From the NCBI GenBank assembly GCA_022822005.1, contig JAJECO010000080.1, positions 1 through 64,000 on the forward strand: a stretch of DNA of 64,000 nucleotides. The letters are read 5' to 3'. This DNA comes from Candidatus Poribacteria bacterium. Its GTDB lineage: Bacteria > Poribacteria > WGA-4E > PCPOR2b. Under the pieces are notes generated by a model. That model saw nothing but the letters and a program-made list of their open reading frames with translations, did no database searches and was not told the DNA's origin. Every line of letters begins with the position of its first letter. Position 1 is the stretch's first letter. A program made the translations under genes and the position numbers. Shown one piece after another: positions 13,418 to 17,195 of the stretch.

Positions 13418-14011
13418 ATGAAACTGAGGCTTACAATTTACTTAGTCTGCCTGCTATTTGTCGTGGGCTTCATTGCTTGTGGTGGGGATTCAGAAGACGA
13501 CACAGAGAAGCAACCTACTAAGCCCGCGGCATCGGCTGGTGGTGGCGAAGTCCTACAGATTACAGTTGACTATGCGGCGGAGGAAGCAGCAATCATCGAG
13601 GTGATGAACCTGCACGCAGAAGCCATCGGAACAAAGGATGCGGACCAATTTATGCCCTATTGGTTGCGGAGCGAAAGCGAAGATGTCTTCGTGGCGTGGG
13701 ACTTTTGGGCGGGGGCGTTTGAGAAACACCTCGGCTGGAAAGCAATCAAAAAGGGATGGGAAGGCATTTTTCGTCTACGCAGCGGCAAGATGAGCGTTGA
13801 AATCGAGAGTATTGCAATCGATAAAATTGGCAAGAACGCCTCACTACGTGGCCGCTATCAGTGGGCGGTCAGCGGTGGTCTGATTGCATCAATGAAGAAG
13901 GACCGCGAAGAAGGGTGGAAAATTCAGCAAATTGATTACACGAATCAGAAGTTCGGAAAACAGGTCGATGAACTTAAGGATCCTGCCTATGTGAATCCGC
14001 CACCCGAATAA
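13418..14011 (+). CDS. Lipoprotein with NTF2/SnoaL-like domain (paralogue 1)
   Basis: 197 aa. The N-terminal signal (LTIYLVCLLFVVGFIAC) ends in a lipobox with Cys21, followed by an acidic and Pro/Ala/Gly-rich linker. From about residue 55 to 180 is a single domain with the helix-then-curved-sheet order of the NTF2/SnoaL/DUF4440 fold (AAIIEVMNLHAEAIGTKDADQF ... GWKAIKKGWEGIFR ... LRGRYQWAV ... EGWKIQQIDYT). The fold often binds small ligands or assists in protein interactions; no catalytic residues are assigned. AGGAGGGAGAG precedes the ATG. A close tandem copy lies 200 bp downstream. Confidence 0.8.
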   Translation: MKLRLTIYLVCLLFVVGFIACGGDSEDDTEKQPTKPAASAGGGEVLQITVDYAAEEAAIIEVMNLHAEAIGTKDADQFMPYWLRSESEDVFVAWDFWAGAFEKHLGWKAIKKGWEGIFRLRSGKMSVEIESIAIDKIGKNASLRGRYQWAVSGGLIASMKKDREEGWKIQQIDYTNQKFGKQVDELKDPAYVNPPPE

Positions 14012-14068
14012 GAGTAGAAGTGAATACTGGCTGAACTACCTAATGGATAGAGAGCTATTTGCTTACAA

Positions 14069-14181
14069 TAACCCAAGTTGCTATCGGGAATTGGAATTCC
14101 CTCTTACAAAAAATGGACGGTAGGGGGCGTACCCTCCGAATCGCGACTCACTTGACTACAGCTACCTAGCAACTTACGTTA
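14069..14181. repeat. 113-bp block with TAACCCAAGTTGCTA / TAGCAACTTACGTTA ends
   Basis: Inverted ends at 14069-14083 and 14167-14181 enclose about 80 bp that include a GGGAATTGGAATTCCC hairpin. The element sits exactly between the two paralogous lipoprotein genes. Related ends occur at 8562-8576 and 8706-8727. Confidence 0.65.
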
Positions 14182-14208
14182 CAATATGTCCGCACGAGGG
14201 AGAAAACA

Positions 14209-14820
14209 ATGAAACGGAGTTTTGGCACTTACTTAACCTGTGCGTTATTTATCGTGGGCCTCACTGCTTGCGGAGGGGATTCGGACGACGATGTAGATAA
14301 GCAGCCCACACAGCCGTCAACCCAGCCATCGACATCGGGCGGTGGCGATGTCCTACAAATTGATGTTGATTATCCGGCGGAAGAAGCGGCAATTATCGAG
14401 GCTTTTACCCTACACGCCGAGGCCATTGGAACAGAAGATGCCAACCAATTTATGGCTTACTGGTTGCGCAGCGAAAGCGAAGATGTCTTTGTTGCTTGGG
14501 TATTTTGGGCGGGGGCGTTTGAGAAACACCTCGGCTGGCAAGCAGTAAGAAAGGCATGGGAAGGTATTTTTCACATACGCAGCGGCAATATGAGCGTTGA
14601 TATCAATAGCGTCGCAATCAATACAACCGGCAAAAAAGCTAGCTTACGTGGTAGCTATCGATGGGCGGTTAACGGTAATGTAATCGCATTAATGGTCAAA
14701 GACCGCGAAGAAGGATGGAAAATTCAACAAGCTGATTACACGGGTGAAAAGTTTGGTAAACAGGTTGAGGAAATTGAAAATCCTGCCTATGTGAATCCAC
14801 CACCCGAAGAAGACGAGTAG
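14209..14820 (+). CDS. Lipoprotein with NTF2/SnoaL-like domain (paralogue 2)
   Basis: 203 aa, closely similar to the gene just upstream over nearly its whole length, including the lipobox (FIVGLTAC), an acidic/Thr-Pro-Ser linker that is a few residues longer, and the block YWLRSESEDVFVAW shared word for word. It ends in PPPEEDE. The pair clearly arose by tandem duplication. Both should be lipid-anchored outside the cytoplasmic membrane. A 12-bp-stem hairpin follows 20 bases after the stop. Confidence 0.8.
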   Translation: MKRSFGTYLTCALFIVGLTACGGDSDDDVDKQPTQPSTQPSTSGGGDVLQIDVDYPAEEAAIIEAFTLHAEAIGTEDANQFMAYWLRSESEDVFVAWVFWAGAFEKHLGWQAVRKAWEGIFHIRSGNMSVDINSVAINTTGKKASLRGSYRWAVNGNVIALMVKDREEGWKIQQADYTGEKFGKQVEEIENPAYVNPPPEEDE

Positions 14821-14978: not shown

Positions 14979-15554
14979 TTAACCGATGATAAGATGAAAT
15001 CCAATGCCAGCAATACCGGCACCGATATAGCGCAGCAACTGTCCGCCATCCTTGAGTCTTTCCGCAATAATACCAATAAAAACACCCGCAACGTGGATTC
15101 CCGCCGTTCCGAGGACAAATCCACAAGCGTAGAACAGCGGCTTGGACAGAGACGGCATCTCTGTTCCGTGCGCGTGACCATGAAATATAGCGAAGAACCC
15201 CACGAATACCATAGCCAATAGCGACGAAAGTTTCTTTTCTAAGGCAATCGCAACGCCTAACGCCAATACAGATAAAGCTATGCCTAACTCAACCGAGAAT
15301 ATTGGTATCCCGTTAATTCCAAGAATTCCACCACCGAGCATAACAAGCACAAAAGTGAGTGGCACTTTCCATATAGCTCGCCCTCCCATCTGCGCACTTA
15401 GGATCCCCACGCTTAACATTGCCAAGAGATGATCAAATCCAAGTACTGGGTGTGTCAGACCTGCCACGAATCCGCCCCCAGAGCCTTCATGTGCATAGGA
15501 GATGCTCGGCAAAAACGGTACGATCCCCACTGTTACTAGAATGATTTTCCTCAT
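14979..15554 (-). CDS. HupE/UreJ family metal transporter
   Basis: 191 aa. An N-terminal signal peptide (IILVTVGIVPFLPSISYA) is followed by about six membrane segments. The two family signatures are present: HPVLGFDHLLAM near residue 35 and the His-rich FAIFHGHAHGTE near residue 120. HupE/UreJ proteins take up nickel or cobalt; neither a hydrogenase, a urease nor a cobalamin gene is in the window, so the metal cannot be chosen. The gene has its own strong promoter and a leader of about 115 bases with a possible stem-loop. AGGAAAGGA precedes the ATG. Confidence 0.88.
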   Translation of the reverse strand: MRKIILVTVGIVPFLPSISYAHEGSGGGFVAGLTHPVLGFDHLLAMLSVGILSAQMGGRAIWKVPLTFVLVMLGGGILGINGIPIFSVELGIALSVLALGVAIALEKKLSSLLAMVFVGFFAIFHGHAHGTEMPSLSKPLFYACGFVLGTAGIHVAGVFIGIIAERLKDGGQLLRYIGAGIAGIGFHLIIG

Positions 15555-15786: not shown

Positions 15787-16683
15787 CTATTGTGGGATTG
15801 ATTGTTTCGTGGCTGTAAGTGCGGGAAAGTAATCTGGCGTAATCTCATCGCCTTCGCAGAGCACTACTGCTCTTGATATTACGCTGTATAGTTCCCGCAC
15901 ATTTTCTGGCCAATCGTACTTGTGAAGCAGATCCATTGCTGCATCAGATACTTGCGGGGGCTTTTTGCTATCTAACTCCGCTTGCTGTTCAACGAAATGC
16001 TGTACCAGAGCCGGGAGATCTTCAAGCCGTTCTCGGAGCGGTGGCGATTGTACCACACAGATGCTCAGGCGATAGTATAGATCAGACCTAAACTTCCTCT
16101 GATCGACAAATTGCTTGAGGTCACCATGGGTTGTGCCAATAATACGTACATCGGCATAAATGGGCTTTGTTCCGCCGACGCGGGTAAAATAACCGTTCAC
16201 CAGGAAATCGTGCAACCGGTTCTGGGTTTCGAGTGGGAGTGCATCAATCTTATCAAGGCATACTGTGCCGTCATTCGCTATTTCGAGCATTCCTTTTTTT
16301 TGACTGGCTGCCCCGGTGAAAGCACCTTCTTCATGACCAAATAGTTCACTATTAGCAAGCGTTGGCGCTGTTGATGGTGTGTGAAGAGCGACAAAGGGAC
16401 CGCTTGCGTACTTGCTATTATAGTGGATTATCCGGGCGATAAGCTCTTTTCCTGTTCCCGTTTCTCCTTGGATTAGAACAGGCGACTGCGTTCCTGCGAT
16501 CTTGTGTAAGTTGGTGCGAAACTGTTGCGTCCATTTGCTTGTGCCGATTAACTCGACTTTGGGAATTGATGGCACCGGTGACCGCTGCGGTGTTTCCATT
16601 GCGTTCAAGAGTTCTTCGGCTTCATCGACAGTAACTTTGTGATCATGGAGCAGAGTGAGTACCTTCCGTTGTGCTGCGTACAT
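15787..16683 (-). CDS. Sigma-54-interaction AAA+ ATPase lacking a DNA-binding domain
   Basis: 298 aa from the ATG at 16683, which has GGAGG 7 bases upstream; longer in-frame starts overlap the preceding gene. Walker A is GETGTGKE (73-80). The sigma-54 contact loop GAFTGA is intact (120-125), and the arginine-finger region FRSDLYYRL is at 198-206. Walker B reads VCLDK (D144, K145), so the usual Glu after Asp is Lys. There is no receiver or GAF domain and no C-terminal Fis-type HTH: the protein stops soon after the AAA+ lid. The first 30 residues (KVLTLLHDHKVTVDEAEELLNAM) form a helical hairpin like the one ending the DUF2089 protein encoded 49 bp upstream. Probably a transcriptional activator working with that partner; ATP hydrolysis is uncertain. 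Confidence 0.85.
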   Translation of the reverse strand: MYAAQRKVLTLLHDHKVTVDEAEELLNAMETPQRSPVPSIPKVELIGTSKWTQQFRTNLHKIAGTQSPVLIQGETGTGKELIARIIHYNSKYASGPFVALHTPSTAPTLANSELFGHEEGAFTGAASQKKGMLEIANDGTVCLDKIDALPLETQNRLHDFLVNGYFTRVGGTKPIYADVRIIGTTHGDLKQFVDQRKFRSDLYYRLSICVVQSPPLRERLEDLPALVQHFVEQQAELDSKKPPQVSDAAMDLLHKYDWPENVRELYSVISRAVVLCEGDEITPDYFPALTATKQSIPQ

Positions 16684-16732
16684 GATTGAACCTCCGATTC
16701 TTTTAAGAGTTAAATGGTTAAAATTGGCCTTT

Positions 16733-17122
16733 TCAGTCCCCTTCGGATTTGCCAAGGGCACTACTAAGTGTTTGCATGGATGCGATACCTTCCTGTGGGG
16801 ACATCTCGCCATGCTCGATTGCCTCAAGGATTTCGAGTTGGTCCCGTCGTTTTGCGCGAGGTGCATACCCCAGGGCGTCGATGACCTCATCAAGTTTTTT
16901 TCGCACCGTTGGGTATGAGATCCCCAGTTCTTTTTCCACCTCCTTGATGTTGCCTCTCGCAACGAGGAACGCTTCAATAAACTGTTGTTGATCGGATGGC
17001 AGTAGTCCCAGTTTGGAAATTGGGAAACGCCCCTCCATTGCGATGTCACAGGAAGTACATTTCAATTTGACAGGTTCAAGCCGGCCCTCACAGATCGGGC
17101 AGTTACTAATTGGTTTGCGCAT
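16733..17122 (-). CDS. DUF2089 zinc-ribbon/HTH protein
   Basis: 129 aa from the ATG at 17122 (GAGAGG about 6 bases upstream; an in-frame TTG at 17140 is less likely). An N-terminal zinc ribbon has CPIC (residues 9-12) and CTSC. A helix-turn-helix-like segment follows (GNIKEVEKELGISYPTVRKKLDEVI), and a C-terminal helical hairpin (LEILEAIEHGEMSPQEGIASMQTL). This is the DUF2089 architecture, thought to be a DNA-binding regulator. It is the first gene of a two-gene unit with the sigma-54-type AAA+ protein and could supply the DNA-binding function that protein lacks. Confidence 0.85.
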   Translation of the reverse strand: MRKPISNCPICEGRLEPVKLKCTSCDIAMEGRFPISKLGLLPSDQQQFIEAFLVARGNIKEVEKELGISYPTVRKKLDEVIDALGYAPRAKRRDQLEILEAIEHGEMSPQEGIASMQTLSSALGKSEGD

Positions 17123-17166: not shown

Positions 17167-17195
17167 ATTATAGCTGACAGAATTATAAATATCAA
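17167..17195 (-). promoter_or_regulatory. Sigma-70-type promoter for the DUF2089/AAA+ operon
   Basis: On the minus strand TTGATA (17195-17190), a 17-base spacer and TATAAT (17172-17167), about 45 bases before the DUF2089 ATG. The surrounding 17150-17270 is very AT-rich. The rest of the 17123-17434 gap holds the upstream region of the divergent isomerase gene; a TATAAT occurs near 17385-17390 with only a weak -35. Confidence 0.65.

Follow-up and report, generated by a model that had tools for sequence, protein, structure and literature searches.

Does a DUF2089 gene followed by a gene for a sigma-54-type AAA+ protein encode a sigma-54 activator divided over two polypeptides? This question is raised by a two-gene locus on the minus strand (15787-17122) of a 64,000-nucleotide stretch of Candidatus Poribacteria DNA (contig C19), referred to here as the window. 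The DUF2089 gene lies upstream, the AAA+ gene follows after a gap of 49 nt and is preceded by a GGAGG-type ribosome site, and both open reading frames (ORFs) are clearly coding (Table 1). The initial annotation, which had placed both genes correctly, proposed a split enhancer-binding activator in which the DUF2089 protein binds DNA and the ATPase remodels or inhibits polymerase. The split unit of this proposal stood, as co-conservation, the lack of orphan genes in the genomes sampled and a natural fusion mark the two proteins as belonging together; the ATPase as a sigma-54 remodeller did not, given its motif losses in a gene under purifying selection. The pair belongs with the DUF2089/SHOCT-like two-gene regulators, since zinc ribbon plus DUF2089 helix-turn-helix (HTH) and a downstream hairpin partner are both present. 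It was not classed among the sigma-54 activators, since its catalytic glutamate is replaced and the GAFTGA loop is not conserved in the family. Tentatively, and with slightly less than even confidence, we regard the AAA+ protein as an oligomeric co-regulator of DUF2089 that binds ATP but hydrolyses it poorly, the two forming one regulator in two pieces.

We searched 85 genomes of Poribacteriota and 64 of Latescibacterota with a clade-specific DUF2089 profile and obtained a bimodal score distribution. All 11 genomes scoring at least 217 bits carried downstream a gene for an AAA+ protein beginning with a SHOCT-like hairpin (SHOCT-AAA+); this gene is cut by the contig end in G007, and in G008 another gene is inserted within the pair. 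No lower-scoring intact DUF2089 locus was followed by SHOCT-AAA+, except for the decayed pair of G113; the G063 locus is likewise decayed and that of G145 is cut by a contig edge. A SHOCT-AAA+ profile was run over samples of 387 and 386 genomes, which may overlap and are small compared with all bacteria, so that a wider occurrence is possible. It recovered 10 full-length genes, seven in one Poribacteria family and three in Latescibacterota, all above 440 bits, all downstream of DUF2089 genes of a single clade and the sole such matches; the next best match (329 bits), an ordinary activator, does not cover the hairpin and begins only after it. No orphan SHOCT-AAA+ gene lacking DUF2089 was found in these samples. 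The metagenome-assembled genome L068, although titled Gemmatimonadetes, groups at phylum level with the genomes of Latescibacterota. Among 50 AAA+ domains the SHOCT-AAA+ sequences formed one clade (support 89/90). The AAA+ partner is thus a rare but strict, monophyletic variant. The genome search suggested in the initial annotation had a divided outcome: few genomes have such a pair, yet its two genes are strictly co-conserved, and DUF2089 elsewhere adjoins other proteins with the same hairpin.

In genome G005 both genes are fused into a single ORF of 421 amino acids comprising zinc ribbon, HTH, two successive hairpins and the AAA+ domain. The fusion is in-frame, with the inter-gene stop codon and ribosome site gone, and it follows a transporter-like gene without the promoter found in its relatives. 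Because clade DUF2089 genes with intact flanks are always followed by SHOCT-AAA+, no orphan was found and one genome fuses both, the conclusion that the two proteins form one split unit is well supported.

Homology searches in Pfam assigned the DUF2089 HTH (E 4.7e-24) and zinc ribbon (E 1.4e-8) to the upstream protein (P0002), in agreement with the initial annotation. The HTH is also similar to HTH_8, the Fis-type domain of ordinary sigma-54 activators; the match has E 3e-4 for the window protein and passes the cut-off in L068. By this homology the DUF2089 protein is predicted to bind DNA. A fold search gave only weak HTH matches (best E 0.07). The downstream protein (P0001) matched Sigma54_activat (E 1.1e-55) and the AAA lid (E 5.5e-23), and the fold of the fused G005 ortholog matches NtrC1 and FleQ. 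As initially annotated, the GAFTGA loop is present, and receiver, GAF and HTH domains gave no Pfam match in P0001; outside the ATPase, only a SHOCT-like_DUF2089-C hairpin was detected at residues 6-32 (E 0.0014, below the curated cut-off). P0001 consequently lacks the C-terminal Fis-type HTH, and a Fis-like HTH sits in its DUF2089 partner.

The helical hairpin common to both proteins, noticed initially as a similarity of wording, is an already named domain, the SHOCT-like domain, which is known to end DUF2089 proteins and to begin their partners (PMC11237479). Its N-terminal copy in the Latescibacterota ortholog L070 clears the Pfam cut-off (27.2 versus 27 bits), and a profile built from partner-protein hairpins matched the C-terminal hairpin in 23 of 46 DUF2089 proteins with up to 22 bits, compared to 13 of 920 shuffled sequences (best 4.2 bits). 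A chance resemblance was rejected on these two grounds. The C-terminus of the window's own DUF2089 protein gave no score by itself in this profile test, and relatives aligning with it did score. Among the 80 nearest DUF2089 loci, the readable downstream genes mostly start with a SHOCT-like hairpin; in Bacillota, Spirochaetes and Halanaerobia these partners bear Toastrack or short unknown domains. The SHOCT-like domain ties DUF2089 to its downstream partner across many phyla and seems to serve DUF2089 regulators generally as a tag for their partners. In the DUF2089/SHOCT-like/Toastrack operons DUF2089 is likewise directly followed by a protein starting with this hairpin, but the effector is Toastrack rather than an NtrC-type AAA+ domain; the combination of SHOCT-like hairpin and NtrC-type AAA+ is not named in the main text of that work (PMC11237479). 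Toastrack (DUF4097) is absent from the locus at 15787-17122 according to Pfam, but it is not universal in DUF2089 operons and defines only their Toastrack subtype.

Two further SHOCT-like proteins were observed beside DUF2089 genes. Beside a DUF2089 gene of a genome of the same class (G066; L165:1933-3399), a single protein combines the SHOCT-like hairpin with HTH_8 (39.5 bits) and Toastrack DUF4097, a second sign of activator modules recruited into the DUF2089/SHOCT-like system. The gene inserted between DUF2089 and SHOCT-AAA+ in G008 (L053:7986-8816) encodes a SHOCT-like protein with leucine-rich repeats, a third type of partner.

Shared domain, strict adjacency and natural fusion together suggest that the DUF2089 and AAA+ proteins bind each other through their hairpins. 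The published proposal for the SHOCT-like hairpin is sub-membrane anchoring instead of pairing (PMC11237479). Accordingly, the AAA+ domain could merely replace Toastrack as the sub-membrane signalling module of an envelope-stress regulator whose hairpins anchor to the membrane, as would suit the finding that most DUF2089 genes precede genes for SHOCT-like proteins with Toastrack or other domains. We consider this improbable: Pfam detected no membrane domain in either protein, the neighbourhood gives no envelope hints, and the fusion supports proximity of the hairpins while saying nothing on anchoring.

Is the ATPase of the pair still a working one? The motifs of 12 SHOCT-AAA+ members, including the truncated G113 protein, were compared with those of 39 ordinary activators. 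The Walker A lysine and the Walker B aspartate are retained in all 12, and the AAA+ domain probably binds ATP. The Walker B glutamate is present in 39/39 ordinary activators but replaced in 10/12 family members, which confirms the initial reading of Lys145 in the window protein. Lysine occupies the site in five of six members of the genus, alanine in G007, G086 and G087, methionine in G085 and serine in G113, while G004 and G008 keep glutamate and may retain hydrolysis; parsimony on the tree requires at least five changes. The switch asparagine, the partner of this glutamate (PMC7057263, PMC7175178), is histidine or phenylalanine in 9 of 12 members (histidine in the genus, phenylalanine in the three Latescibacterota proteins of full length). 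Most Poribacteria members have an intact GAFTGA, but two of the six of the genus, G002 and G003, have altered forms (GAFTRA, RAFTGA); in the Latescibacterota members the motif is gone, together with the sensor II arginine and one arginine finger. Because catalytic glutamate, switch asparagine and, in relatives, GAFTGA, arginine finger and sensor II were repeatedly lost, sigma-54 remodelling is, judged by these motifs, not the conserved job of the pair.

A sequencing error at Lys145 is unlikely, as lysine was found in five genomes and is encoded by two different codons. A decaying ORF was rejected as well: ratios of nonsynonymous to synonymous substitution rates (dN/dS) of 0.09-0.21 within the genus indicate purifying selection on the AAA+ gene, though the G113 and G063 loci did decay. 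For a selected protein which keeps nucleotide binding and loses the parts for hydrolysis, a role as scaffold or as nucleotide sensor is the best reading. That an ATP-bound, non-hydrolysing state can be stable is shown by NtrC1, whose Walker B Glu-to-Ala mutant yielded crystals with ATP bound (3m0e; PMC7175178). Loss of the glutamate in most members with retention of the oligomerisation parts would also fit an anti-activator, a hydrolysis-dead subunit which joins the hexamers of other activators or titrates sigma-54, with DUF2089 setting its level or place. This dominant-negative role seems improbable, as strict pairing and fusion point to DUF2089 as the partner and the Latescibacterota members lose an arginine finger and GAFTGA as well.

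Sigma-54 is available to the pair: rpoN was found in the window's genome, which also encodes about 18 full sigma-54 activator domains, and in 7/7 relatives checked. A split activator in the initially proposed sense, in which DUF2089 recruits an AAA+ ring to an enhancer for the remodelling of RNA polymerase-sigma-54, would need Lys145 to be tolerated or hydrolysis to be contributed by other activators of the cell in mixed rings. There is a precedent in FleT of Rhodobacter (Cereibacter) sphaeroides, likewise an AAA+ protein without sensor or HTH, which acts in complex with its DNA-binding partner FleQ (PMC11999139, PMC7175178) and is described in a review as the only known activator without both outer domains (PMC7175178); the C-terminal Fis-type HTH is also missing in some true activators, namely CtcC, FlgR and FleT (PMC3162934). 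The layout of the pair resembles this split type, and co-conservation and fusion suggest a corresponding partnership; FleQ, however, belongs to the same class of activators as FleT, whereas DUF2089 is not an AAA+ protein. HrpR and HrpS of Pseudomonas syringae are also sensorless activators acting as a hetero-complex, but both are AAA+ proteins (PMC7057263). In Poribacteria a sigma-54 role could still be played, because the window protein has GAFTGA, arginine fingers and sensor II in intact form and rpoN is present; G004 and G008 even keep the glutamate. Nevertheless we consider a split sigma-54 activator unlikely in view of the repeated changes at the Walker B site and of a GAFTGA loop altered even inside the genus and missing in Latescibacterota. 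Moreover, no sigma-54 promoter was found in the window at up to one mismatch. The operon itself has a sigma-70 type promoter (Table 1), similar elements being recognised by eye in G007 and G008.

Inverted repeats TTGA-N-TCAA or TCAA-N-TTGA, possible operators, were seen upstream of DUF2089 in G001, G002, G007, G008 and G085. TTGA-N-TCAA upstream of the operon occurred in 5/10 orthologs versus 0.7 expected, but this motif was picked post hoc in AT-rich DNA and was not used as evidence.

For the co-regulator which we favour, the following mechanism can be proposed. DUF2089 would supply DNA binding via its HTH, and its C-terminal hairpin would pair with the N-terminal hairpin of the AAA+ protein. 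The latter would bind ATP through Walker A and, in most members lacking the glutamate needed for hydrolysis, would form an ATP-dependent oligomer that hydrolyses slowly or not at all and clusters DUF2089 on DNA. Rather than opening sigma-54 promoters, the complex may then modulate those read by the ordinary sigma factor, perhaps its own promoter among them; sigma-70 targets are suggested. TyrR, DhaR, HupR and VpsR are single proteins with a DNA-binding domain of their own, unlike the pair. The Latescibacterota members otherwise look like these GAFTGA-defective, activator-type AAA+ proteins which left sigma-54, among which TyrR, DhaR and HupR work with sigma-70 (PMC3162934). In evolutionary terms, it is conceivable, and we hold this a little more loosely still, that the DUF2089/SHOCT-like docking system took over the ATPase of a sigma-54 activator, which is now being converted, in parallel in several lineages, into a non-hydrolysing nucleotide-binding scaffold which regulates sigma-70 promoters in trans, with the Fis-like HTH provided by a separate zinc-ribbon protein.

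Several points weigh against the co-regulator. GAFTGA, arginine fingers and sensor II persist in several members, the window protein among them, and all tested genomes have rpoN. The genomes compared are mostly draft metagenome assemblies. Finally, no complex was predicted from the G005 fusion, a single-chain model for which no inter-domain error was returned: its predicted local distance difference test score (pLDDT) was 89, but its predicted template modelling score (pTM) of 0.61 is about the value expected of the AAA+ part alone, and the relative placement of the halves was not predicted.

If the co-regulator reading is true, the pair would be a second and different case beside FleT, with a non-AAA+ DNA-binding partner. 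The natural series from the intact G008 protein to the GAFTGA-less and Glu-less Latescibacterota proteins would allow one to ask how an ATPase of obligatory activity can give up hydrolysis and still be of use, and the widespread, uncharacterised DUF2089 family would gain a partner rule, its C-terminal hairpin meeting the hairpin of the next gene's product.

Table 1. Genes, domains, motifs and promoter of the DUF2089/SHOCT-AAA+ locus in the window.
Feature	Position	Strand	Basis
Sigma-70 type promoter of the operon, TTGATA-17-TATAAT	17167..17195	-	conserved in 5/6 genomes of the genus
DUF2089 protein, 129 amino acids: zinc ribbon, HTH, C-terminal SHOCT-like hairpin	16733..17122	-	Pfam
DUF2089 zinc ribbon, residues 8-38	17009..17101	-	Pfam; C8, C11, C22, C25 invariant across 46 relatives
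DUF2089 HTH, residues 41-86	16865..17002	-	Pfam; weak similarity to Fis-type HTH_8
DUF2089 C-terminal two-helix SHOCT-like hairpin, residues 89-118	16769..16858	-	hairpin profile, alignment with relatives
SHOCT-AAA+ protein, 298 amino acids, without sensor or DNA-binding domain	15787..16683	-	Pfam
N-terminal SHOCT-like hairpin of AAA+ protein, residues 6-32	16588..16668	-	Pfam; family members
NtrC-type AAA+ (Sigma54_activat) domain, residues 45-210	16054..16551	-	Pfam, fold match of the fused ortholog
Walker A GETGTGKE, intact	16444..16467	-	alignment
His101 at switch Asn site	16381..16383	-	alignment
GAFTGA loop, residues 120-125, intact in window protein	16309..16326	-	alignment
Lys145 (AAG) at Walker B Glu site	16249..16251	-	sequence, alignment
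AAA+ lid domain, residues 217-294	15802..16035	-	Pfam

A HupE/UreJ family gene (14979-15554) follows on the same, minus strand 232 nt downstream of the AAA+ gene; it has its own sigma-70-like promoter (15706-15678) and stays close by in some, not all, relatives. A tandem pair of genes on the plus strand (13418-14820) encodes predicted lipoproteins that resemble each other and match SnoaL-like with a borderline score; relatives have one to three copies. On contig C65 of the window's genome (L057:3755-8372) lies another DUF2089 operon, a classical one that includes SHOCT-like and Toastrack genes.
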